A DNA stretch of 50,981 bases from Elusimicrobiota bacterium. Its GTDB lineage: Bacteria > CAYTYR01 > UBA6262. The stretch is taken from NCBI GenBank assembly GCA_003153935.1, contig PMCA01000009.1:1-50981 (forward strand). The letters run 5' to 3'. Every line of letters starts with the position of its first letter. Positions within the stretch are counted from its first letter, which is position 1. The position numbers and the translations under genes are program-made. Positions 7,341 to 49,888 of this stretch are shown here, piece by piece. Below the pieces are notes generated by a model, which saw only the letters and a list, made by a program, of their open reading frames with translations, ran no database searches and had not been told where the DNA came from.

Positions 7341-7384
7341 TCTGCAAGTATCTGGCGATTTAATTATTGGCAGGGGTTACCGGG

Positions 7385-10300
7385 TTGAATAGAATTATAA
7401 CTGAAAGCACTCTATTTTATATGCGTTTGTACGCGCGCCTGCGCGGCGAGCATTTAGTGAAAAAACACAGGGTGGGGGAGATGCCATTACGCTCGGAGCT
7501 GTTTAGCAGCGGGCGGATGAAGCAGCATGGCAAAACTCTGGCCGGTTTGCATAAATTAACAGTCAGGCACTCTGCCAAAACGCTTTTGACCAGATTAACG
7601 GAGAATGAAGATGTCCTGGTGGAAACCCATGCCTTGCTGACTGAGGCGGTTAAGGCGAAACGCCTGATCGCGCCGGCAGGGGAATGGCTCCTGGATAATT
7701 TTTATTTAATGGAAGAACAGGTTCGTACGGCCAAGAGGCATTTACCGAAGAGTTACCATCGGGAACTGCCTCTTTTAAGCAATGGACCATCGGCTGGCCT
7801 GCCCCGCGTTTATGATATTGCCAAGGAGCTGATCGCCCATGGTGATGGACGGGTGGATCAGGAGATCCTGAGCAATTTTATGGTGGCTTACCAGGAAGTT
7901 ACCACTTTAAAACTGGGCGAATTGTGGGCGGTCCCGATCATGTTGCGCCTGACCCTGATCGAAAATCTGCGCCGGGTGGCCACACGCATCGCCGCCGAAA
8001 GGGCCGATCAGGAGTTGGCCGATCTCTGGGCGGATAAGATGGCCGAGATCGCAGAAAGGGATCCTAAGAGTTTGATTTTGGTCGCCGCCGATATGGCGCG
8101 GTCAAAACCACCCATGTCGAGCGCGTTTATCGCCGAGCTGACCCGCCGCCTGCAGGGACAGAGCCCCTCTCTGGCCTTACCACTTACCTGGATCAAGCAG
8201 TGGCTTTCTGAGGCGGGATTGACAGTCGAGCATTTGATTAATTTGGGGAACCAGAATCAGGCGGCTGACCAGGTTTCTATCAGTAATAGCGTCGGTACCC
8301 TGCGTTGGTTGGGCGCCATGGATTGGCGCGTGTTTGTTGAGACGATGAGCGCAGTCGAGCGGATACTGCGTGAGGATCCCAGCGGGTTTTATAGCCGGAT
8401 GGACTTTGCCACCAGGGATAGTTACCGTCACGTAATTGAAAAAATAGCGAAAAGCAGTAAGCTCCCTGAAAGCGCGGTAGCGCAAAAAGCGATCCAATTG
8501 GCACTAGATGCTGCCGGAAAAAATGGCACCAACGATCGGGCGGTCCATGTCGGATTCTATTTGATCGATAAAGGCCTGTCGCAGCTTGACCAAGCCAGCC
8601 GGGCGAAACGTATCCCGGTGTCGCTATATCTGGGCGCCATTGCCCTGGTCACCTTTCTTTTAGCGGGGGCACTGACCTTAGCTCTAAATACCAGGAACGT
8701 CCCTTATGGGGAAGTTATTGTTCTTGGTATTTTTTTAGTTATAGGCATTAGCCAGTTGGCTTTAGAACTGGTCAATCGTCTGGCAATGTCTATGGTAAAT
8801 CCTAAGTCTTTGCCGCGTATGGACTTTTCCCTGGGGATCCCGGCGGAATTTCTTACCTTAACGGTTGTGCCAACTATGATCACCAGCCCGAAGAACATAG
8901 AGGACCTTATCGAGGCGATGGAAGTACGGTTCCTGGCTAATCGTGATGAACATTTACGTTTTGGTTTATTGACTGATTTTCGTGACGCGCCGCAAGAAAC
9001 CCTGCCTGAGGACGCGGCGCTGCTAGGGCTGGCCAGGGATAGAATTGAAGAGCTTAACGCCAAATATAAAACAGGTGATGATATTTTCTTTCTTTTCCAC
9101 CGCCCGCGACGTTGGAATCCCCAGGAAAAATTATGGATGGGTTATGAGCGTAAGCGGGGAAAACTGGCCGACCTGAATTGGCTTCTGCGCGGAGGGCCCA
9201 AGGAGAACTTTTTACTCATAGTCGGGGATATGGCAGTTTTGACCAACGTGAAGTACATCATCACCCTGGACACGGACACGCAATTACCGCGTGATTCCGC
9301 GCGGCACCTGGTGGAAACCATGGCTCATCCCTTGAACAGGGCCTGTTACGATGAAAGCAAGCAATTTGTTTGTGAAGGCTATGGTATCCTGCAGCCGCGG
9401 GTAAGTATGAGCTTGCCGGGAGCGAATCGTTCCTGGTACGCACGTTTATACGGAGGCGAGCCGGGGATAGATCCTTATACCCGGATGATTTCCGATGTTT
9501 ACCAGGATCTATTCGCGGAAGGCTCGTACATCGGCAAGGGTATCTATGACCTGGATATTTTTGAAAAGGCGTTAAAGGGGCGGATGCCCGACGGTAAGAT
9601 ACTTAGCCATGACCTGTGGGAGGGGTGTTACGCTCGTTCGGGGCTGGTAAGCGATGTGGAATTGTATGAAGAATTTCCTTTCCGTTACAGCGCGGACGTT
9701 AAGCGCAGGCGTCGTTGGATACGCGGGGATTGGCAATTAATAGGATGGTTAAGGTCCAAAGTCCCGGCTGCGAACGGCCAGGAACAGAAAAATACCCTAT
9801 CCATATTATCGCAATGGAAACTTTTTGATAATTTACGGCGCAGCCTGGTGCCGGCTTCATTAATGATCCTGTTAGTGATGGGTTGGGCGATCTTGTCAGC
9901 TCCCTGGTTTTGGACATGTATGGTCATGGGGATCATCTTTCTCCCGTCGTTGATCAGTTCTGTTTTAGAGATGTTTAACAAGCCGAAGGAAGTTTTGCTA
10001 AAGCAACATTTAAACGCGCTCGCGCGTTCGACAGGTTGGCGTTTTGCTGAAAGAGCCTTTACCTTCGCCTGCCTGCCCTATGAGGCCTTCTTTAGCCTGG
10101 ATGCGATAGTGCGCACCGCGGTACGAATGCTGATAACCCATAAACGGCTGCTGGAATGGAATTTGTCCCCGGATACAAATGGAGCGGATCTTATCAGCTC
10201 ATTCCGTTTAATGTGGATATCTCCCGTGACGGCAATGCTGGTGTTTATTTATATCGGGGCTGCGAATCCCTTATCCTTGACCGTGGCCGGACCAATATTA

Positions 10301-13300
10301 TTGTTATGGGCCGCATCCCCGGCTATAGCCTGGTGGATTAGCCTTCCTCTGACGCGGCGGGAAGCAAAACTTAGCGCCGGGCAATTCCTTTTCCTCCGCA
10401 AGCTCTCACGAAAAACCTGGTCTTTTTTTGAGACTTTAGTCGGTCCCGAAGGCCATTGGTTACCGCCTGATAACTACCAGGAATATCGCAGCGTCAAGAT
10501 CGCGCATCGCACCTCACCCACAAATATAAGCCTGGCGCTGCTGGCGAATTTGTCGGCGTATGATTTTGGCTATATTACAGCCGGTACGCTGATCGAACGC
10601 ACCCAAAATACCTTTAACACCATGGCCGGTTTGCAACGATTCAAAGGCCATTTTTATAACTGGTATGATACGCAGTCTTTACAGCCTCTCCTGCCCAGCT
10701 ACATATCAACAGTGGATAGCGGCAACCTGGCCGGGCATCTATTGACCCTGAGGCCGGGATTGCTGGCTCTGGGCGATGATAAGATCGCCGGGGCGCGTTT
10801 ATTTGCCGGCCTGCAAGACACGCTTATGGTCCTGCTGGATTCTATAAAAGATATCAATTTACTTTCGATCGACCAGCTACTGAAAGACCTGAGGCTGGCT
10901 TGCGAAGTGAGGCCAACTACTCTGGAGCAGGCTCGTCTGGGTCTGGAAACTCTGACCCGGTACTCCGAAGAACTCAGCAGTAAACTTTCTACCGCTACAG
11001 AGGGCGAAGCGGCGGAGTGGGTTCAATCTTTTATACGGCAAGGCCGCCAGGCTCTTGATGACCTGACATTCCTGGTCCCGCAGGATATTCCTGGCCTTAC
11101 AGGGATCCCGACACTGCGGGAGCTGGCCAAAATTGACGGCGAGGTTGGCGTGCGCGCGCAAAAACGGATCACAGAAATTGAACGCTTGGTCCGGCAAGCC
11201 GGCGAATTCGCGCAGATGGAATATGATTTTCTCTATGACCCGGCCCTACACTTATTGAGCGTGGGATACCACATAGAGGAGCGTAAATTGGACCCAAGTT
11301 TTTACGATCTACTGGCCTCGGAAGCGAGGGTGGGTTATTTCACGGCGATCGCCCAGGGAAAAGTTCCCCAGGAAAGCTGGTTCGCCCTGGGACGCTTGCT
11401 GACGAATACCGGCGGGAAACCGGTGCTTTTATCCTGGAGCGGTTCGATGTTCGAATACTTGATGCCGCTGTTGGTGATGCCAACCTATGAAAATACCCTG
11501 CTGGAGGAGACTTACCGGTCGGTGGTGGATATACAGATAGAATACGGGAAACTGCGCGGCGTAGCCTGGGGTATGTCGGAGTCCGGTTATAATACCATGG
11601 ACGTTAATTTTAACTACCAGTACCGCGCGTTCGGCGTACCGGGGTTGGGATTCAAGCGCGGGCTGGCTGAGGATCTGGTCATCGCGCCCTATGCCTCCAT
11701 ACTGGCCTTGATGGTGGCTCCCGAGCAGGCCTGCCTGAATTTGCAGCGACTGGATCAGGAAGGGGTGATGGGAAGATTCGGATTTTATGAAGCAGTCGAT
11801 CACACTCCGTCCCGTCAGCGGCGCGGTGAATCGAGTGTGGTGATCCGTTCATTTATGGCACATCACCAGGGTATGAGCTTTCTTTCTCTGGCCTATTTAT
11901 TATTAGATCGCCCCATGCAAAAACGGTTTCAGTCCGATCCGCTTTTCCAGGCAACCATGTTATTGCTGCAGGAGAAGGTTCCTAACGTCAGGCCGTCCTA
12001 TACCCATGCCGACGAACCAGACGACATCCGGACACTTTCCGGAGAAACGCAAATACCGGTCCGCGTTCTGAAAACTCCTGACACCCTGATACCAGAGGTA
12101 CAATTATTGTCCAACGGCCGGTATCATGTGATGGTGACGAACGCGGGAGGAGGATACAGCCGCTGGAAGGATATGGCCGTCACCCGCTGGCGTGAGGACA
12201 GCACCTGCGATAACTGGGGCGCGTTTTGTTATATTCGCGACCTGTCGAGCGGGGAGTTCTGGTCTACCGCTTATCAGCCGACGCTGCAAAAGCCCAAGAA
12301 TTATGAAGCGATTTTTTCCGAGGGACGCGCGGAGTTTCGCCGACGCGATCATGATATCGATTCCCATACTGAGATCGTGGTTTCGCCGGAAGATGACATC
12401 GAATTGCGCCGCGTGCACCTTACTAACCGATCATGGTTGAAGAGGACGATCGAGGTAACCAGTTACGCGGAGGTGGTCCTGTCCTCAGATGCCGCGGACG
12501 CACTGCATCCCATGTTCGGCAATCTTTTTGTCCAAACGGAGATTATCCAGCGGCGGCAGGCGATCCTGTGTTCCCGGCGCCCCCGTTCCCTGGACGAACA
12601 CCCGCCGTGGATGTTTAATTTAATGGCCGTGCATGGCGCCGAGGCCCAAAAGGTTTCTTATGAAACGGATCGTACACGGTTTATCGGGCGAGGCTATAGT
12701 ATGGCCGCACCTTATGCCATGAGCCAGGCTACACCGCTTTCCGGGAGCCAGGGTTCGGTGCTGGACCCGGTAGTGGTTATCCGCAGCCAGATCGTCGTTG
12801 AGCCGGACCAGACAGTCATCATTGATATGGTTTCCGGCATTGGTGAAACGCGGGAGTTGGCTTTAGCTCTCATTGAAAAATACCGGGACGAGAGGATAGC
12901 GGACCGGGTGTTCGAACTGGCCTGGACGCACAGTCAGGTAGTATTGCGGCAGATCAACGCCACTGAGGCGGACGCGCAACTTTATGGAAAACTGGCCGGC
13001 TCAATTATTTACGCTAATTCTTCACTGCGTGCGGACGCCAGTGTTCTGACGCAGAACCGCCGCGGTCAAAGCGGTCTCTGGGGTTACGCTATTTCCGGCG
13101 ACCTGCCTATAGTTCTCCTGCAGATCGGGGATACGGATAATATCGAGATGGCTCGCCAGATGGTGCAGGCGCACGCCTATTGGCGCTTAAAAGGGTTAGC
13201 GGTCGACCTAGTGATCTGGAATGAAGCTTTGTCCGGTTACCAGCAATTAATGCAGGAACAGATTATGGGTATGATCACGGCGAGCGTCCAGGAGAAGATA

Positions 13301-15925
13301 GCCCGTAATACCGGTGAGATATTCGTGCGCCCGGCCGAACAAATATCCAACGAGGAACGTATCCTGCTGCAGTCAGTGGCGCGGGCCATTATTTCGGACC
13401 GCCGGGGAACATTAGCCGGCCAGATCAACCGTCGTAATACCGGAGAATTTCCCATTCCGCGGTTTATACCGGTTAAAACGTATCGTCCCGAACTTGTATC
13501 GGCAGGGGGTGAGTCCGGAAAAGAGTTGGTATTTTTTAATGGCTTGGGAGGCTTTGCTCCGGACGGGCGTGAATACGTCGTCAAACTTGCGCCGGGCCAC
13601 GTAACACCAGCGCCATGGGTGAATGTCTTGGCGAATCCGCATTTCGGCACCGTGGTTTCAGAGAGCGGGATGGCTTATACGTGGAGCGAAAATGCCCATG
13701 AATATCGCCTGACGCCCTGGAACAATGATCCCGTGAACGATCTGGCCGGAGAAGCTTTTTATTTGCGTGATGAAGACACGGGCCATTTCTGGTCCCCAAC
13801 GCCTAAGCCGGTTAATTCAGGACAGCCTTACCTCAGCCGGCATGGATTCGGCTATAGCGTATTTGAGCATGATGAGGGAGGCATTCATTCGGAATTATGG
13901 GTCTATGTAGCTTTGGATACAGCGGTAAAGTTCTCCGTCCTTAAAATTCGTAACCTGTCCGGCCGGGACCGCCGGCTTTCCGCCACCGGTTATGTGGAGT
14001 GGGTTCTGGGAGATCTCAGACCCAAAACAATTATGCAGGTAAGCACCGAAGTTGATCTTATAAGCGGCACGCTCTACGCGCGCAATCCGTACAGTACGGA
14101 ATTTTCTGGTACCGTGGCTTTCTTCTCGGTAGATGATGTCTCAGGAACGGTCAGCGGCGATCGCACGGAATTCATCGGGCGCAATGGCTCACTACAAAAT
14201 CCGGCGGCTATGTCACGCGCGCATCTTTCCGGTAAAATAGGAGCGGCTTTAGATCCCTGCGCCGCACTACAGGTCCCATTTGACCTGGCTGACGGGGAAA
14301 AACGGGAGATAGTTTTTACGCTGGGCGCCGGTAATGGCCTGGATGAGGCTCGTAATCTGGTGCAGCGTTTCGGCGGAGCGGACGGGGCGCATGAGGCTTT
14401 GACAGCGGTGTCCGAGTACTGGACGCGCACATTGGGAGCAGTGCAGGTGGAAACGCCGGATAAATCGCTCAACGTGCTGACCAACGGCTGGCTGCTTTAT
14501 CAAACTCTGGCTTGCCGTGTGTGGGCGCGCAGCGGTTTTTATCAATCCGGCGGCGCGTTCGGTTACCGCGACCAGTTACAGGACGTGATGGCTCTTATCC
14601 ATAGTGAACCACGTCTGACGCGGGAGCATTTGCTTTTATGCGCAGCCCATCAATTTAGCGAGGGAGATGTCCAGCATTGGTGGCATACGCCAGCGGGCCG
14701 GGGCGTGCGCACCCATTGTTCGGATGATTATCTCTGGTTGGCATTAGCCACCAGCCAATACGTTCTCAGTATCGGGGACACGGGAGTATTGGATGAATTG
14801 ATCCCTTCCCTGCGCGGCCGGTTGGTGAACGCGGAAGAAGACTCGTATTATGACCTGCCCAGCCAGTCACCGGAGAAAATCAGTTTGTACGAGCATTGCC
14901 AGCGAGCTATTATCAAGGGTCTTAATTTTGGGGAACACGGGTTGCCCCTGATGGGATCGGGAGATTGGAACGATGGGATGAACCTGGTCGGCCAAAAGGG
15001 CCAGGGGGAAAGCGTTTGGCTGGGATTCTTCCTGTATGAAGCGCTGATGAAGTTTAGCCAGATCGCCGAGCAGCGTGGTGACCTGGCTTTCGTGAAGACC
15101 TGCCGAACCCAGGCGGCTAAGTTGCGTCAGAATATTGAAAGGGATGGTTGGGACGGTGAGTGGTACAGGCGCGCGTATTTTGATGACGGGTCGCCTCTCG
15201 GATCTGCGAGTAATACGGAGTGCCAGATAGATTCTATCGCCCAAAGCTGGTCGGTCCTTTCCGGGGCCGGCGATCCCCAGCGGGCGCGCCGGGCTATGGA
15301 GTCACTCTCTCAGCGTCTGGTTCGCCGGGACAGCCGGATCATCCAACTCCTGGATCCGCCGTTTGATAAATCCAGTTTGAACCCCGGCTATATCAAGGGT
15401 TATGTTCCCGGTGTGCGTGAAAATGGCGGACAATATACTCATGCGGCTATCTGGGCGGCTATGGCCTTTGCCCGGCTGGGCGACAACCGGCAGGCCTGGG
15501 AACTTCTCGGGATGATCAATCCCATTAATCACGCCAGATCTGCGGCTGATGTTAATACCTATAAGGTAGAGCCTTATGCCGTCGCGGCCGACGTGTACGC
15601 GGTGGCGCCCCACACCGGACGGGGCGGGTGGACCTGGTATACCGGCTCGGCCGGGTGGATGTACCGCCTGGTCCTGGAATCGCTGTTGGGGTTAAAACTG
15701 GAAGTAAATAAGCTGACGATAGAACCCTGCTTGCCAGCGGATTGGCCGTCATGCAAAATACGCTACCGGCATCAGGAGACAATTTATGATATCGAAGTGA
15801 TACGCCTGACCGACGGCAGCAAGCAGACCGTGATAAAAATAGATGGATTTAAACAAGAGAACAGGAGCATTCCGCTTAATGACGATCACCAGGAACACCG
15901 CGTTGAAGTGCAAATTCCCGCCTAA
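7385..15925 (+). CDS. ndvB: Cyclic beta-1,2-glucan synthase (NdvB/ChvB type)
   Basis: A giant inner-membrane enzyme of about 2846 residues, the normal size for NdvB/ChvB, which builds cyclic beta-1,2-glucan (an osmoregulated periplasmic glucan) from UDP-glucose. Domains in order: an N-terminal helical region; membrane helices near 410-465; a GT84 glycosyltransferase domain (about 520-800) with DTDT at about 629 and a QxxRW-like RRRRWIRGDWQ; further membrane helices (about 825-985); a glycoamylase-like domain (about 1280-1520, with GMSESGYN); two sugar-binding supersandwich domains; and a C-terminal GH94 phosphorylase domain with GSGDWNDGMN (about 2525-2532) that trims chain length. The start is uncertain: TTG at 7385 has AGGGG eight bases upstream, while TTG 7367 and ATG 7421 are alternatives. 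The upstream gene and site D suggest stress-controlled expression. Confidence 0.92.
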   Translation: MNRIITESTLFYMRLYARLRGEHLVKKHRVGEMPLRSELFSSGRMKQHGKTLAGLHKLTVRHSAKTLLTRLTENEDVLVETHALLTEAVKAKRLIAPAGEWLLDNFYLMEEQVRTAKRHLPKSYHRELPLLSNGPSAGLPRVYDIAKELIAHGDGRVDQEILSNFMVAYQEVTTLKLGELWAVPIMLRLTLIENLRRVATRIAAERADQELADLWADKMAEIAERDPKSLILVAADMARSKPPMSSAFIAELTRRLQGQSPSLALPLTWIKQWLSEAGLTVEHLINLGNQNQAADQVSISNSVGTLRWLGAMDWRVFVETMSAVERILREDPSGFYSRMDFATRDSYRHVIEKIAKSSKLPESAVAQKAIQLALDAAGKNGTNDRAVHVGFYLIDKGLSQLDQASRAKRIPVSLYLGAIALVTFLLAGALTLALNTRNVPYGEVIVLGIFLVIGISQLALELVNRLAMSMVNPKSLPRMDFSLGIPAEFLTLTVVPTMITSPKNIEDLIEAMEVRFLANRDEHLRFGLLTDFRDAPQETLPEDAALLGLARDRIEELNAKYKTGDDIFFLFHRPRRWNPQEKLWMGYERKRGKLADLNWLLRGGPKENFLLIVGDMAVLTNVKYIITLDTDTQLPRDSARHLVETMAHPLNRACYDESKQFVCEGYGILQPRVSMSLPGANRSWYARLYGGEPGIDPYTRMISDVYQDLFAEGSYIGKGIYDLDIFEKALKGRMPDGKILSHDLWEGCYARSGLVSDVELYEEFPFRYSADVKRRRRWIRGDWQLIGWLRSKVPAANGQEQKNTLSILSQWKLFDNLRRSLVPASLMILLVMGWAILSAPWFWTCMVMGIIFLPSLISSVLEMFNKPKEVLLKQHLNALARSTGWRFAERAFTFACLPYEAFFSLDAIVRTAVRMLITHKRLLEWNLSPDTNGADLISSFRLMWISPVTAMLVFIYIGAANPLSLTVAGPILLLWAASPAIAWWISLPLTRREAKLSAGQFLFLRKLSRKTWSFFETLVGPEGHWLPPDNYQEYRSVKIAHRTSPTNISLALLANLSAYDFGYITAGTLIERTQNTFNTMAGLQRFKGHFYNWYDTQSLQPLLPSYISTVDSGNLAGHLLTLRPGLLALGDDKIAGARLFAGLQDTLMVLLDSIKDINLLSIDQLLKDLRLACEVRPTTLEQARLGLETLTRYSEELSSKLSTATEGEAAEWVQSFIRQGRQALDDLTFLVPQDIPGLTGIPTLRELAKIDGEVGVRAQKRITEIERLVRQAGEFAQMEYDFLYDPALHLLSVGYHIEERKLDPSFYDLLASEARVGYFTAIAQGKVPQESWFALGRLLTNTGGKPVLLSWSGSMFEYLMPLLVMPTYENTLLEETYRSVVDIQIEYGKLRGVAWGMSESGYNTMDVNFNYQYRAFGVPGLGFKRGLAEDLVIAPYASILALMVAPEQACLNLQRLDQEGVMGRFGFYEAVDHTPSRQRRGESSVVIRSFMAHHQGMSFLSLAYLLLDRPMQKRFQSDPLFQATMLLLQEKVPNVRPSYTHADEPDDIRTLSGETQIPVRVLKTPDTLIPEVQLLSNGRYHVMVTNAGGGYSRWKDMAVTRWREDSTCDNWGAFCYIRDLSSGEFWSTAYQPTLQKPKNYEAIFSEGRAEFRRRDHDIDSHTEIVVSPEDDIELRRVHLTNRSWLKRTIEVTSYAEVVLSSDAADALHPMFGNLFVQTEIIQRRQAILCSRRPRSLDEHPPWMFNLMAVHGAEAQKVSYETDRTRFIGRGYSMAAPYAMSQATPLSGSQGSVLDPVVVIRSQIVVEPDQTVIIDMVSGIGETRELALALIEKYRDERIADRVFELAWTHSQVVLRQINATEADAQLYGKLAGSIIYANSSLRADASVLTQNRRGQSGLWGYAISGDLPIVLLQIGDTDNIEMARQMVQAHAYWRLKGLAVDLVIWNEALSGYQQLMQEQIMGMITASVQEKIARNTGEIFVRPAEQISNEERILLQSVARAIISDRRGTLAGQINRRNTGEFPIPRFIPVKTYRPELVSAGGESGKELVFFNGLGGFAPDGREYVVKLAPGHVTPAPWVNVLANPHFGTVVSESGMAYTWSENAHEYRLTPWNNDPVNDLAGEAFYLRDEDTGHFWSPTPKPVNSGQPYLSRHGFGYSVFEHDEGGIHSELWVYVALDTAVKFSVLKIRNLSGRDRRLSATGYVEWVLGDLRPKTIMQVSTEVDLISGTLYARNPYSTEFSGTVAFFSVDDVSGTVSGDRTEFIGRNGSLQNPAAMSRAHLSGKIGAALDPCAALQVPFDLADGEKREIVFTLGAGNGLDEARNLVQRFGGADGAHEALTAVSEYWTRTLGAVQVETPDKSLNVLTNGWLLYQTLACRVWARSGFYQSGGAFGYRDQLQDVMALIHSEPRLTREHLLLCAAHQFSEGDVQHWWHTPAGRGVRTHCSDDYLWLALATSQYVLSIGDTGVLDELIPSLRGRLVNAEEDSYYDLPSQSPEKISLYEHCQRAIIKGLNFGEHGLPLMGSGDWNDGMNLVGQKGQGESVWLGFFLYEALMKFSQIAEQRGDLAFVKTCRTQAAKLRQNIERDGWDGEWYRRAYFDDGSPLGSASNTECQIDSIAQSWSVLSGAGDPQRARRAMESLSQRLVRRDSRIIQLLDPPFDKSSLNPGYIKGYVPGVRENGGQYTHAAIWAAMAFARLGDNRQAWELLGMINPINHARSAADVNTYKVEPYAVAADVYAVAPHTGRGGWTWYTGSAGWMYRLVLESLLGLKLEVNKLTIEPCLPADWPSCKIRYRHQETIYDIEVIRLTDGSKQTVIKIDGFKQENRSIPLNDDHQEHRVEVQIPA

Positions 15926-24828: not shown

Positions 24829-25623
24829 TTGGCAAAATTCAAGGAAGCAATGAAAAAGATATTGGGTAGAGATCCGGCAGCTGATAACCGCCAGGCCGCG
24901 TCTGCTGATCCTGATCAGCTGGGTCATGCCGAGAAGATGAAGATAATCGATGAATTGGCCAGTGGCCTGGCCCATGAAGTTAAAAACCCGTTAGCTATCA
25001 TATTGCAGGGGGTAGACTTCCTGGCCAGCCGGGTGAAGAACGAAGATCCTAACGTGGCTGTGACCATTGAGTATATACAGGACGCGATCAAAAGAGTAGA
25101 TAAGCTTATTGGTGAGTTCCTGGATTTCTCCAGTATATCCGGGTTAAATATCGAACTAACAGACTTAAATGAGGTTATTAATAATTCATTATTATTGATC
25201 CATAACCAGCTTGAGGCTAATAAGATAGAAGTTGTTAAGAATTACCGCTCTGATGTGCTGGAAATCAGGATGGACAAAAACAGGATCACGCAGGTCCTGG
25301 TCAACCTGATGCTGAACGCTGTCCAGGCGATGCCTCAGGGAGGTAAGCTAACGCTCAGAAGCTATATAGATCGGTCGTTAGAGACAAATAACGGACAAGG
25401 GGCGATAGCGGTCGCAGAAGTAGAGGATTCCGGTATAGGGATCCCGGAGGAGGATCTGCCTAAGGTTTTTGACTTTTTCTATACCTCCCGTCGCAGTAAG
25501 GGAAATATTGGGTTGGGCCTGTCCACCGCCAAGAATATCATGGATATGCACGGCGGCAGTATAAACCTGCAGAATCGCAAAGATAATAACGGTATAAAAG
25601 CAATTATCAGGTTAAAAGCTTAG
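24829..25623 (+). CDS. Soluble sensor histidine kinase without a sensor domain
   Basis: A 264-residue cytoplasmic histidine kinase core. The dimerisation helix has the phospho-acceptor His49 in H-E-V-K-N-P-L, and the ATPase domain has an N box (NLMLNAVQAMP), a G1 box (DSGIGIPEEDL), an F box (FDFFYTS) and a G2 box (GNIGLGLS). There is no membrane helix and only about 30 residues precede the kinase core, so it must receive its signal from a partner. The receiver-only protein 16 bases downstream is the likely partner. TTG start with GGAGAGG upstream. Confidence 0.85.
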   Translation: MAKFKEAMKKILGRDPAADNRQAASADPDQLGHAEKMKIIDELASGLAHEVKNPLAIILQGVDFLASRVKNEDPNVAVTIEYIQDAIKRVDKLIGEFLDFSSISGLNIELTDLNEVINNSLLLIHNQLEANKIEVVKNYRSDVLEIRMDKNRITQVLVNLMLNAVQAMPQGGKLTLRSYIDRSLETNNGQGAIAVAEVEDSGIGIPEEDLPKVFDFFYTSRRSKGNIGLGLSTAKNIMDMHGGSINLQNRKDNNGIKAIIRLKA

Positions 25624-45446: not shown

Positions 45447-45476
45447 CCGGCAGGAAATTCTTCAGTGCCAATATTG

Positions 45477-45518
45477 TACCCGGGTATAATTGACTATTTT
45501 TATGGCCAGGATTATGCT
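45477..45518 (+). promoter_or_regulatory. Promoter with TACCCGGGTA palindrome (phosphorelay operon)
   Basis: A perfect 10-bp palindrome TACCCGGGTA (45477-45486), three bases, TTGACT (45490-45495), a 17-base spacer and TATGCT (45513-45518). The site at 47931-47972 has the same blocks at the same spacings. The palindrome would centre near -43, a typical position for an activator. TATAAT inside the overlap (45485-45490) is an alternative -10 but has no -35. Confidence 0.7.
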
Positions 45519-45542: not shown

Positions 45543-45932
45543 ATGCCTGCAGAACAAGAACGCTTATATATTGTCGACGATAACGAGTCAGTATGCCGCT
45601 CGCTTAAATTATTATTAACGACATATGGGTTTGAGGTGAGCACTTTCACTTCCGCGGAGAAATTTTTCGGTACGGTGTCGGACAAGGATCGGGGCTGTTT
45701 GATCATGGACATCCACATGCCGGGTTTGAGTGGATGGGAAGCGTTAAAGCGGATCGTCGAATTCAAGATAGACTGCCCGGTTATTATGATCTCGGCCAAT
45801 AAGACCGATGGTAATCCAGAGCGGGCTTTAAAATCAGGGGCGGTGGGGTTTTTGCTAAAGCCGTTTACTGACAAAGCCTTGGTCGACCTTATTCACTCTG
45901 CGCTGGAAAAGCCGACAACGGCCCTGGCTTAG
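45543..45932 (+). CDS. Single-domain response regulator (FixJ-type receiver)
   Basis: A 129-residue receiver domain with the acidic pair Asp12/Asp13, phosphorylated Asp56 (M-D-I-H-M-P-G), a Ser/Thr near 84 and Lys near 104 (L-L-K-P-F). It is closely similar to the receiver part of the FixJ protein at 47255 and probably arose with it by duplication. No output domain, so it may be a phosphate sink or intermediate between the kinase and FixJ. Start at 45543 with GGAGGG. An in-frame start at 45465 would precede the promoter. Confidence 0.9.
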   Translation: MPAEQERLYIVDDNESVCRSLKLLLTTYGFEVSTFTSAEKFFGTVSDKDRGCLIMDIHMPGLSGWEALKRIVEFKIDCPVIMISANKTDGNPERALKSGAVGFLLKPFTDKALVDLIHSALEKPTTALA

Positions 45933-45955
45933 CCATAACCATGGGGGGAAAGCAA

Positions 45956-47254
45956 ATGAAAAAGAAAACAACAATTAGCAAGCGCTTAGCCATAGGTAAA
46001 ACCAAAAACGGAGAGCAAAAACGCCTAAAAGGGGTAGTGGCAGGCTTGCGCAAGAACCGCAACGGGTTGAATGATAAAATCCGCAAACAAAAAAACGCGC
46101 TAGTGAAGAAAAATGGGGAATTAAGGAATGGGGCGGAGAAACAAGTAAGGGCGGAAGAGCAGATCCACATCCGTACGAAAGCTATGGAATCCGCTGTCGA
46201 CGGTATTTTTATTATTGACGCCCAAAAACAGGATTATCCAATTATCTACGTCAACCAATCATTTCAAAAGATGACCGGCTATCAAAAAAAGGAAATCCTG
46301 GGTCAAAATTATTTCTTATTGTATGGTTCTGAAGCCGATCCGCAAGTCATCGAGAAGATAAAACAAACGATACGCAAAGAAAAAGCTTACCATGGCGAAA
46401 CGCCAAATTATAAAAAAGATGGCAAAAAACATTGGAATCTATTGCGCATTACGCCAGTCCAGGATGCCAGAGGCGCGATCACTCATTATGTCGGTATCCA
46501 GACCGATGTCACAATGATGCGGGAGAAGCAGAAAGAGATCGATGAACAGCGCGAGGAGCTATTGCACGTCACCAGGGTAGGAAAACTGGCGGAATTCGTT
46601 TCGTCCCTGGCTCACGAGATCAGCCAGCCTCTTACTTCCATTCTTTCTTACGCCCAGGCCGCCCAACGCATGCTCGCCGACCGGGAACCTAAACTGCGGG
46701 AGATCCTCTCGTATATCATTGATGATGACCAGCGGGCGGCTGAGGTCATACATCGGCTGCGGACACTATTAAAGAAGAGTAAGCCGGATATGAAACAGCT
46801 CGATATTAATACCCTTATTAACGATACGGTGGAACTGATCACTACTGATGCTACCGTAAGGAATGTTGATTTAAAGAGAGATTTTGCCAGCCACCTGCCT
46901 TTGGTCACCGGCGACCGGGTACAACTGCAGCAGGTGCTCCTTAATCTTATCAGTAATAGTTTTGAAGCTTTGGAGAGCAGCCGCGATGTGCGGGAAATAT
47001 CGATACGCACCTCGCTGCAGGATAACGACACGATCAGGGTTGAGGTGAAGGATACAGGAGTCGGGCTCCCCGTAGAGAATATACCTAAACTTTTTACCCG
47101 GTTTTTTACGAGCAAGCCGGATGGTTTGGGTATGGGGTTGTCCATCAGCCGTTCCATAATAGAAGCCCATGGCGGCCGACTGGATGTGGATAATAATCCT
47201 GGTAGCGGCGTAACCGCTTATTTCACCATACCTATCAGTACAAAGGATGCTTAA
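45956..47254 (+). CDS. PAS/LOV-domain sensor histidine kinase (FixL-like) with Cys to Tyr change
   Basis: A 432-residue soluble kinase: a basic helical N-terminus (1-70), a LOV-type PAS domain (about 75-187), then a FixL-like kinase with phospho-acceptor His220 (S-L-A-H-E-I-S-Q-P-L) and an N box, G box and L-G-M-G-L-S. The PAS domain matches LOV strongly: G-Q-N-Y119 in place of G-R-N-C, Asn151 in N-Y-K-K-D-G, Asn161 in W-N, and Gln182 in G-I-Q-T-D. The spacings from the Cys position (32, 42 and 63) equal those between C450, N482, N492 and Q513 of oat phototropin LOV2. The flavin-binding residues are thus in register but the adduct-forming Cys is missing. ATG 45956 follows GGGGGGAAAG; the ATG at 45941 is in frame. 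Confidence 0.88.
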   Translation: MKKKTTISKRLAIGKTKNGEQKRLKGVVAGLRKNRNGLNDKIRKQKNALVKKNGELRNGAEKQVRAEEQIHIRTKAMESAVDGIFIIDAQKQDYPIIYVNQSFQKMTGYQKKEILGQNYFLLYGSEADPQVIEKIKQTIRKEKAYHGETPNYKKDGKKHWNLLRITPVQDARGAITHYVGIQTDVTMMREKQKEIDEQREELLHVTRVGKLAEFVSSLAHEISQPLTSILSYAQAAQRMLADREPKLREILSYIIDDDQRAAEVIHRLRTLLKKSKPDMKQLDINTLINDTVELITTDATVRNVDLKRDFASHLPLVTGDRVQLQQVLLNLISNSFEALESSRDVREISIRTSLQDNDTIRVEVKDTGVGLPVENIPKLFTRFFTSKPDGLGMGLSISRSIIEAHGGRLDVDNNPGSGVTAYFTIPISTKDA

Positions 47255-47881
47255 ATGACCGCTCACCAGCCGCTTATCTATGTTGTTGATGACAACGTCT
47301 CCATCTGCCGGGCCCTGAAATTGTTACTACAAGCCTATGGGTTTAAAGTTGAAACGTTCACTAAGGCGGCAGATTTCCTGGCCTATAAGCATCCCAGACA
47401 GCAGTCCTGCCTGGTCCTGGATATCCGCCTGCCGGATATCGATGGGCTGGCCCTGCAAGAGATAATGGCAAAAAAGGGCATCACGATACCTATTATCTTT
47501 ATCACCGGACACGGCGATATTCCCATGAGCGTAAAAACTATGAAGGCCGGAGCTATTGATTTCCTTCCCAAACCTGTTACCAAGATGAAGCTGCTCAATG
47601 CTATTACCCTGGCTATATCAAAAAGCCAGGCGCAACTTAAAAAACAAGCTGAGATAGATAAGATCAAACGCCGCGTCAAAACATTATCCCCTAAAGAATT
47701 GGAAGTTTTTCAACTGGTAGCCAAGGGAATGCTGAGCAAACAGATCGCTTACAAGCGCGGCACTTCCCTGCAAACTATCAAGGTACACCGCAGCAGGGTC
47801 ATGCAAAAAATGCAGGCAGAAACCGTGACCGACCTCATCCGCTTCGCCCAGATGGCAGGCCTTACGTCATCCCAGAATTAA
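47255..47881 (+). CDS. FixJ-family response regulator with LuxR-type HTH
   Basis: A 208-residue transcription factor: receiver domain with Asp12/Asp13, phosphorylated Asp56 (L-D-I-R-L-P-D), Thr and Lys residues, followed by a LuxR/FixJ-type helix-turn-helix (about 140-205; L-S-P-K-E-L-E-V-F and G-T-S-L-Q-T-I-K-V-H-R). Its ATG starts directly after the stop codon of the kinase. It is the likely output of the LOV-like kinase and the single-domain receiver. The TACCC[GA]GGTA boxes at 45477 and 47931 are plausible targets, since one is in its own operon promoter. The exact operator cannot be assigned. Confidence 0.92.
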   Translation: MTAHQPLIYVVDDNVSICRALKLLLQAYGFKVETFTKAADFLAYKHPRQQSCLVLDIRLPDIDGLALQEIMAKKGITIPIIFITGHGDIPMSVKTMKAGAIDFLPKPVTKMKLLNAITLAISKSQAQLKKQAEIDKIKRRVKTLSPKELEVFQLVAKGMLSKQIAYKRGTSLQTIKVHRSRVMQKMQAETVTDLIRFAQMAGLTSSQN

Positions 47882-47930
47882 TCTCTTCCCAGCACTTCCC
47901 AGACACCATTCCCAGGCAAATCCCCTGTTA

Positions 47931-47972
47931 TACCCAGGTATAATTGACTCCTTTTATGATTAAGCCTATGCT
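47931..47972 (+). promoter_or_regulatory. Second TACCC-GGTA promoter (Cys-rich and OmpA genes)
   Basis: TACCCAGGTA (47931-47940), three bases, TTGACT (47944-47949), 17 bases, TATGCT (47967-47972). About 35 of the first 45 bases agree with 45477-45521. Transcription is predicted from about 47979, giving a 40-base leader to the ATG at 48019. Confidence 0.7.
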
Positions 47973-48018: not shown

Positions 48019-48192
48019 ATGAGCTTGTGCGGTTATCATTTAAGATGTCTGAACTATGGGGAAAATTGCGCCAACTGTGAGCATAATCATATGGAAAACG
48101 CTAAGGATTATCTTCATGATAAGTTAAATGTATGGCCCAAAGGTAAAGACTCGATCTTTGCTAATGAAGATGAGCAGCCGAATAGATTATAA
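48019..48192 (+). CDS. Small Cys-rich protein, possible zinc ribbon
   Basis: A 57-residue protein with cysteines at 4, 10, 17 and 20 (C-x5-C-x6-C-x2-C) and a His-rich stretch E-H-N-H right after. Four Cys plus nearby His are typical of a small zinc-binding domain. The rest is acidic and helical. ATG follows AAAGGAGG. It is under the TACCC-GGTA promoter and is likely the first gene before the OmpA gene, about 100 bases downstream. Function unknown. Confidence 0.7.
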   Translation: MSLCGYHLRCLNYGENCANCEHNHMENAKDYLHDKLNVWPKGKDSIFANEDEQPNRL

Positions 48193-48292
48193 CCTTATGG
48201 TAAGCGGGCTTTAGTCGCGTTTCTAAAAGGAGGCAAGCTCAATTTAAGAGCATATGAAGATTTGGATCCAAAAATATAAAGGAGGAATCTGT

Positions 48293-49888
48293 ATGAAGAA
48301 AACATTAATCGTATTGTTTATTTTCGCCGCATTCTTGTTGATGAAGGAACCCCAGGCAAAGGCGGCTCCAGTAGTGGAGACACCGCTCTACCAGGTCACA
48401 GTGGTACAAACCCCTGCTAAAGCTATCAATTACCGGGACCTTAAAGGTTCCGTAGACATTGATTTCAATGGCACCGTGCTCCTGCCTGCTGCTAAGGGAG
48501 AAGCTGAAATCAAGAACAGAGCGGGCATAATAGGAATTGAAGCCAAATTTATGAACTTAACGGCGCCGGCGCAATTCGGTCCTGAGTATATGACCTATGT
48601 TTTATGGGCCATATCCCCGGAAGGCCAGGCTACCAACCTGGGAGAACTTATCGTTAAGGATGGTAAGAGTCAACTGGACGCAAAAACGCCGCTACAGGCT
48701 TTGAGCCTGTTCGTAACCGCGGAGCCGTACTTCGCTGTCTCACAACCGAGCAATGTGGTTATCCTGGAGAACGCAATCAAGCCCGGCAACACAGACAAGA
48801 TAGCGTTAATTGACGCTAAATACGAGCTGCTGCCGAGAGGGCAATACACTAAGAACATCGCCGCGACGGACCTGCAGCCGGTAGTAATGGATAAGAAGAC
48901 GCCTTTCTACGTTTACCAGGCGCGGAACGCCGTGCAGATAGCCAAAGCAGCGGGCGCGGAAACTTATGCGGCAGACGGTTTTAAAAATGCCGAAAGACTT
49001 CTGGCCTTGTCTGAAACAAAAGAGGGCGGCATGAAAGGCCGTTCAATGACGGCGCGTGAAGCCGTGCAAATCGCTGAGGACAGCCGTTCTATGGCCGTGA
49101 AACGCCAGGCTGAAGAAGCTCTCTCCAGTGAACGCAAGGACGCGAAGGATCAGATCCTCAGCGCTAATAGTAAAGCTACCAACGCCATCGCCGGTCGGTC
49201 AAAAGCGGAAGACGCTCAGGCCAAAGCCGAGCTAGCCAAAGGGCAATCGGATACCGAACGCACCGCGGCTTTAGCTCTGGCGACCAGCGCTGCAGCTTCC
49301 TCAACCGTTTCCCAAGCAGACGCGACTGAAGCTCGGACAGCGGCAAATGATTCCAAGATGCAGATGGACGCCGCTAATAGCAGGGCAAAGATGTCAGATG
49401 ATAGGGCACAACTGGCTGATGATAGAGCCACAGCGGCCGAGGGCGATAAAGTCGCCTTGCGCGCCCAACTCCTGGCACAGTTAAACGCAGTCCTGCAAAC
49501 GCAGGATACCGCCCGGGGACTGATCGTCAATATGTCCAATGCCCTGTTCCAAACGGGGAGTTCAGTATTGCAACCGATGGTCCGCGAGAAATTGGCAAAA
49601 ATCGCCGGGATCGTATCGGCTTATCCCGGTTTAAAATTAGACGTTGAAGGATACACTGATAACGTTGGTGGTGATGAATACAATCAACAGTTGTCGGAAA
49701 AAAGAGCCCAGTCAGCGCAGAATTACCTGGTAAGCCAGGGCGTGCCGGCGGACTCCATTGTGTCGCAGGGATTTGGGAAAACTAACCCCATCGATTCAAA
49801 TGAAACAGTTCAAGGCCGGCAGAACAACCGCCGGATCGAGATAGTGGTGAGCGGCGCTCCGATAGGGTTATCGGCGAAGGCTGAGTAA
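48293..49888 (+). CDS. OmpA-family protein with coiled-coil middle
   Basis: A 531-residue exported protein with a signal peptide (about 24 residues, ending K-A-A). A beta-rich N-terminal half (25-200) is followed by a long Ala/Asp/Glu/Arg-rich coiled coil (about 225-395). The C-terminal OmpA domain (about 410-525) carries N-A-L-F-x-x-G, G-Y-T-D-N-V-G and N-R-R-I-E-I, which bind peptidoglycan. It could link the cell wall to an envelope partner through a rod-like coiled coil. ATG 48293 follows AAAGGAGG; the ATG at 48254 is in frame. It lies 100 bases after the Cys-rich gene with no terminator visible between. Confidence 0.88.
   Translation: MKKTLIVLFIFAAFLLMKEPQAKAAPVVETPLYQVTVVQTPAKAINYRDLKGSVDIDFNGTVLLPAAKGEAEIKNRAGIIGIEAKFMNLTAPAQFGPEYMTYVLWAISPEGQATNLGELIVKDGKSQLDAKTPLQALSLFVTAEPYFAVSQPSNVVILENAIKPGNTDKIALIDAKYELLPRGQYTKNIAATDLQPVVMDKKTPFYVYQARNAVQIAKAAGAETYAADGFKNAERLLALSETKEGGMKGRSMTAREAVQIAEDSRSMAVKRQAEEALSSERKDAKDQILSANSKATNAIAGRSKAEDAQAKAELAKGQSDTERTAALALATSAAASSTVSQADATEARTAANDSKMQMDAANSRAKMSDDRAQLADDRATAAEGDKVALRAQLLAQLNAVLQTQDTARGLIVNMSNALFQTGSSVLQPMVREKLAKIAGIVSAYPGLKLDVEGYTDNVGGDEYNQQLSEKRAQSAQNYLVSQGVPADSIVSQGFGKTNPIDSNETVQGRQNNRRIEIVVSGAPIGLSAKAE

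Follow-up and report, generated by a model that had tools for sequence, protein, structure and literature searches.

The soluble FixL-like histidine kinase encoded in this 50,981-nucleotide stretch of DNA (the window, by which we mean the whole of it) carries a PAS domain of LOV lineage in which a tyrosine occupies the place of the photoactive cysteine. Comparison across the family points to a LOV-derived domain that has been retooled and is probably flavin-free; we consider it the probable reading that it modulates a stress-type FixJ system, which can do without it, and is not a photosensor. The PAS domain would thus probably no longer be a light or flavin sensor.

The kinase ORF spans 45941-47254; ATG 45956 is the more probable start, with the better ribosome-binding site (GGGGGGAAAG) upstream and in agreement with the residue numbering of the preliminary description. 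From this start the gene (45956-47254; forward strand, as are all features of the operon, its promoters and its predicted targets given here) encodes 432 aa (437 aa from ATG 45941) arranged as coiled coil, LOV-derived PAS, HisKA and HATPase_c, for which Pfam returns PAS_9 (4.3e-22), HisKA and HATPase_c (1.9e-25). The PAS domain lies at 46199-46513, the phospho-acceptor His of HisKA (HEISQP) at 46613-46615, and the HATPase_c catalytic domain, with its N, G1, F and G2 boxes, at 46910-47236. Upstream is a single-domain response regulator of 129 aa (45543-45932; Pfam Response_reg, 9e-26; phospho-acceptor Asp at 45708), whose longer GTG start (45465), overlapping the promoter, is unlikely; downstream is a FixJ-like response regulator in which Pfam finds a receiver and a LuxR-type HTH (47255-47881; phospho-acceptor Asp at 47420). 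The arrangement is that of a FixJ-type two-component system, a HisKA/HATPase kinase with intact motifs adjoining a receiver-LuxR regulator, and the regulator's NCBIfam FixJ score of 196 bits lies below the 255-bit cut-off. The operon order receiver, kinase, FixJ-like regulator recurs at orthologue loci, with the single-domain receiver on either side. Elsewhere the window holds another soluble histidine kinase, one with no recognisable sensor domain (24829-25623) and a 2852-aa cyclic beta-glucan synthase-like protein (7367-15925; NdvB-like by eye), a similar gene to which lies near the kinase in L072.

The LOV ancestry of the domain is supported by several lines of evidence. Its closest solved relatives are LOV domains, the first being MrLOV (9vf7, 1.3e-29); an AlphaFold2 model built from ten orthologues has a pLDDT of 84.7, and a Foldseek search with this predicted fold ranks LOV structures first, with 45% identity to MrLOV over 103 columns; the domain tree described below agrees. 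The alignment to LOV2 runs without gaps, and the match is therefore not due to chance. In this register Tyr119 (46310-46312) stands at the Cys450 position, as the preliminary description had it, and Asn151 (46406-46408), Asn161 (46436-46438) and Gln182 (46499-46501) do correspond in the window member to the polar residues N482, N492 and Q513. The GxNCRFLQ motif with its adduct-forming cysteine is replaced by a Tyr version, so the earlier claim that a Cys-flavin adduct cannot form gains support; a conventional photoadduct LOV was rejected, Cys occurring in 0/35 homologues. The cysteine is not the only residue to have changed: the window domain also has Arg451 to Phe, Gln454 to Tyr, Val416 to Phe and Thr418 to Ile. 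The window's own genome contains no other LOV-like domain, only three PAS stretches of 27-31% identity, and in a small set of five genomes from its own phylum the only matches are those of the window.

Orthologues were sought by a genome-wide scan and in 384 genomes from the phylum to which locus L005 belongs, and a coherent set was found, 50-69% identical across the domain, mainly in Omnitrophota with one from Firestonebacteria. Among 35 non-identical domains, compared with 17 Cys-LOVs, the Cys450 position is Tyr in 31, Phe in three and Ser in one. The preliminary description had proposed asking whether this residue is conserved among homologues: an aromatic at the Cys site is indeed conserved (34/35), but the flavin-contact residues vary. 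The neighbouring substitutions are family-wide, position 416 being Phe in 34/34, 418 Ile in 29/34, 451 Phe in 33 and Leu in two, and 454 Tyr in 30, with Arg451 and Gln454 each lost in 35/35. The polar contacts erode across the family while the aromatic plug stays conserved. N492 is kept in 18 domains and lost in 17 (Ser in 13), Q513 has become Lys in 11/35 and N482 Ser in 5/35, and N449 is altered in 8/35. At least one of these four contacts is lost in 25/35, all four being kept in 10/35, the window member included; all 17 of the Cys-LOVs compared keep all four. A match of Asn, Asn and Gln in one sequence alone, this comparison warns, does not show a flavin sensor. At informative distances the LOV-derived domain shows a dN/dS of about 0.05-0.3, with constraint somewhat weaker than in the core in most pairs, and it is therefore under purifying selection and maintained where present.

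In the domain tree the Tyr family forms one clade (support 100/100) that joins the Cys-LOV group (97/87), apart from MmoS and from LOV-like domains of the Pro type; with support of 86/51, the tree allows both nesting inside the Cys-LOVs and a sister position. Loss of an ancestral Cys in the Tyr clade is likely. Omnitrophota also encode, at L051-L053, L059 and L060, one-component proteins of ~310 aa in which a canonical Cys-LOV is joined through a coiled coil to an HTH of LuxR type, and these are likely true blue-light regulators in this phylum. Proteins at L025, L026, L054-L057, L061 and L062 have this LOV-coiled coil-HTH layout too, but Pro takes the place of the Cys (GKTPxxLQGP); with the Asn/Asn/Gln set kept, they stand nearer than the window domain to the Cys-less LOV* domains already known.

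What the family-wide substitutions would do to a flavin is suggested by their positions. At 18 positions that we take, after LOV2 structures, to contact the flavin (the side-chain volume table being likewise our assumption), the family carries 253 Å3 more side-chain volume than the Cys-LOVs, in sums that ignore backbone shifts; random sets of other columns gain a mean of 28 (sd 72), and 0.13% of sets reach 253 Å3. Residues equivalent to R451, L453, Q454, 416 and 418 line the flavin pocket, and in W619_1-LOV the counterparts of the first three (Arg54, Leu56 and Gln57) normally contact the ribityl or phosphate (PMC5314338); for AsLOV2 V416M, no soluble holoprotein was obtained (PMC11151830). The volume sums, which do not substitute for a structure, argue for a filled pocket across the family: the Tyr or Phe at the Cys site, together with Phe416, Ile418, Phe451 and Tyr454, would fill positions lining the LOV flavin pocket.

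These data bear directly on the flavin-based redox or light sensor that had been proposed for this kinase, which in its explicit form would be a Cys-less LOV* domain that binds flavin and signals by (photo)reduction, the Tyr beside the flavin ring giving up an electron or a proton and Gln513 serving as the relay. The LOV fold and register agree with such a sensor, as does the presence of N449, N482, N492 and Q513 in the window member, and Cys-less LOV domains are able to signal via a neutral semiquinone, with natural examples (PMC4682037). Against it stand the family-wide R451F, Q454Y, V416F and T418I, the variation of the polar contacts with its losses in 25/35, and the dispensability of the domain in the family described below. 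The signature residues point the same way: the natural Cys-less LOV* set was defined by absence of Cys with at least nine other conserved residues kept (Yee et al. 2015, PMC4682037), and recognition of LOV receptors has been set at eight or more signature residues (PMC11151830), whereas the window domain keeps 6/9 other than the cysteine and the family 2-6/9, below both thresholds. We therefore do not favour the proposed sensor, and hold it to be rather improbable.

The loss of contacts has to be read with some care. MmoS PAS-A has been described as an FAD-based redox sensor, and it is without several of the same flavin contacts as the window domain, so contact loss is no proof that flavin is absent. 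Weak or altered flavin binding is possible in the window member, because it keeps all four polar contacts. A more specific variant, in which some members, the window's included, bind flavin and run a BLUF-like cycle on a LOV fold, with the Tyr donating its electron in a proton-coupled step, strikes us as very improbable indeed; if true, it would give a stress kinase a novel kind of switch driven by light or redox state.

The strong conservation of the new residues under purifying selection could also reflect a pocket re-shaped for another small ligand, the kinase being a metabolite sensor, as many PAS domains bind metabolites. The substitutions make the cavity smaller, however, some of the former polar pocket is free to vary, and deletion of the domain, repeatedly and with the circuit kept, speaks against an indispensable ligand input; we regard a metabolite sensor as improbable.

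That deletion became apparent from a search with the kinase core (residues 186-437) as query. Some orthologues, 68-77% identical and with frames of ~300-340 aa, have no PAS domain at all yet still begin with the coiled coil and keep the linker that leads into HisKA; others bear a different PAS domain. On the kinase tree the PAS-less form requires four changes, at least three of them forced by well-supported branches; the PAS-less kinases are not one clade, a single origin being rejected (AU p = 0.0008), and a single clade for the LOV-form kinases is rejected as well (p = 0.0003). The excisions observe a conserved register. Counting only rows in which both anchors are readable at the same site, the stalk with the LOV-derived domain is 134 residues long (162 in one), always 1 mod 7, and the stalk without it is 23, 16 or 9 residues long, always 2 mod 7. 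In photoreceptor kinases the heptad register of such linkers is known to matter for the polarity of the signal (PMC11164954). The kinase, the FixJ-like regulator and the single-domain regulator are retained whether or not the LOV-derived domain is present; judged from these orthologues, the domain is dispensable in the kinase family. Repeated excision and contact erosion are what one might see in a non-functional remnant on its way out, but dN/dS well below 1, core motifs that are invariant across deeply diverged genomes and a domain length that is exactly retained make a remnant very unlikely.

The circuit itself can be followed through its promoter. Upstream of the operon a 7-2-7 palindrome, TTGTACC-CG-GGTATAA (45474-45489), a predicted binding site of the FixJ-like regulator, directly precedes a sigma70-type promoter (45490-45518) made up of TTGACT (45490-45495), a 17-base spacer and TATGCT (45513-45518); the element is repeated as TTATACC-CA-GGTATAA (47928-47943), followed by TTGACT-17-TATGCT (47944-47972). 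The two palindromes were first picked up as a repeat within the window and are conserved at orthologue loci. A 22-mer pattern occurs in the window above chance (0 expected); a loose 14-mer pattern does not exceed chance there. Across genomes the module reads TTATACC-NN-GGTAYAA, then directly TTGAYT, then a -10 hexamer 16-18 bases on, a -10-like hexamer at this distance being present in 104/106 motif sites vs 29% in shuffles. The exact 19-mer is found in 27/37 genomes with the kinase vs 11/347 without it, in related genomes for which Fisher p-values are indicative and overstate independence; a reversed control pattern is in none of the genomes listed. The window's genome carries the module a third time, in weaker form, upstream of a predicted secreted protein (G000:C34:4633-4648, L117).

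The motif is equally common where the kinase is without the LOV domain (7/9). One genome, G195, has six motif sites and a 71% identical FixJ-like regulator without an orthologue of the window kinase, and among 14 control genomes that lack both motif and kinase none has such a regulator at E <= 1e-30; the element therefore goes with the regulator. By its distribution among these genomes, then, it is the regulator that the promoter element follows, rather than the LOV domain. In G195 (C32, L203) the regulator orthologue sits beside a different, unrelated PAS kinase, indicating partner exchange.

The genes behind the element suggest what the system may control. Single-domain receivers are the commonest (a cluster of 33/100 sites), a STAS/ABC-like protein, its identity read from the sequence by eye, follows at 5/100, and further genes encode secreted proteins, a low-affinity iron permease, DUF1328, entericidin and Fe/Mn superoxide dismutase. 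In the window the elements precede the operon itself, a 57-aa Cys-rich small protein (48019-48192; predicted target, no Pfam match) and, behind the second promoter, an OmpA-family protein (48254-49888; possible target, Pfam OmpA 1.3e-22), with a transglycosylase-associated protein and a BON protein further downstream. The 57-aa protein, encoded directly behind the promoter module, contains CGYHLRCLN...C..C and ...NVWPKG; at each of two orthologue loci (L065 and L099) a relative of it likewise follows the motif. The predicted target set resembles general or envelope stress regulons, with a shared promoter element seen upstream of stress-type genes and regulator binding and induction predicted. 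A literature search on Omnitrophota two-component systems returned nothing relevant.

We thus envisage a LOV-lineage domain, converted clade-wide to a pocket-filled and probably flavin-free PAS module, that would sit within the coiled-coil stalk and act on the FixL-like kinase not as a photosensor but either as a module that sets helix register in the dimer or as a surface for protein interaction. The kinase would pass phosphate to the FixJ-like activator, with the single-domain receiver as a second partner, either sink or relay; the activator, acting on TTATACC-NN-GGTAYAA beside the -35, would activate both its own operon and genes of envelope or stress type.

Several known systems share parts of this design. 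With LOV photoreceptor kinases (YtvA-LOV, MrLOV, Brucella LOV-HK and the engineered YF1 with its FixL kinase and FixJ) the window kinase has in common the LOV fold and ungapped register, an N-terminal sensor position, solubility, a coiled-coil joint and a FixJ-type partner; it differs in having neither Cys, Arg451 nor Gln454, in the aromatics in its flavin pocket and in orthologues that lose the domain. It resembles BAT-LOV*, which binds flavin, in being LOV-like without the adduct-forming cysteine, but LOV* domains have residues such as Ala, His or Pro at that site with the signature kept (PMC4682037), while the window family has Tyr or Phe and a depleted signature. In Caulobacter a LOV kinase and single-domain regulators are linked to the general stress response through LovK, LovR and MrrA (PMC5964349); the pairing of LOV-type kinase and single-domain regulator, the link to a stress regulon and control by that regulon (predicted in the window) are alike, but the photoactive cysteine is absent here and the output is a FixJ-like DNA-binding activator with a 7-2-7 site in place of PhyR/NepR/sigma. 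FixL-FixJ shares the kinase core and FixJ-like partner architecture, yet the window sensor is not a heme PAS, and the window's proteins miss both equivalog cut-offs, that for FixL by a wide margin; FixL-like heme sensing was rejected, the family alignment having no invariant F-helix His and the FixL equivalog scoring 205 bits vs 850. Flavin redox PAS proteins (MmoS, NifL, Aer) share the PAS fold, with contact losses partly similar to those of MmoS PAS-A; unlike MmoS, the window family groups with LOV domains, in a tree that includes neither NifL nor Aer, and its aromatic plug is not seen in MmoS.

Together, these kinases make up a natural series in which one kinase carries a plugged LOV-derived domain, carries another PAS domain, or has had the domain excised at one coiled-coil register, and which lets the contribution of LOV and PAS domains beyond light sensing be examined. 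Further, the stress-type regulon and promoter code predicted here are now testable for uncultured Omnitrophota and their relatives.
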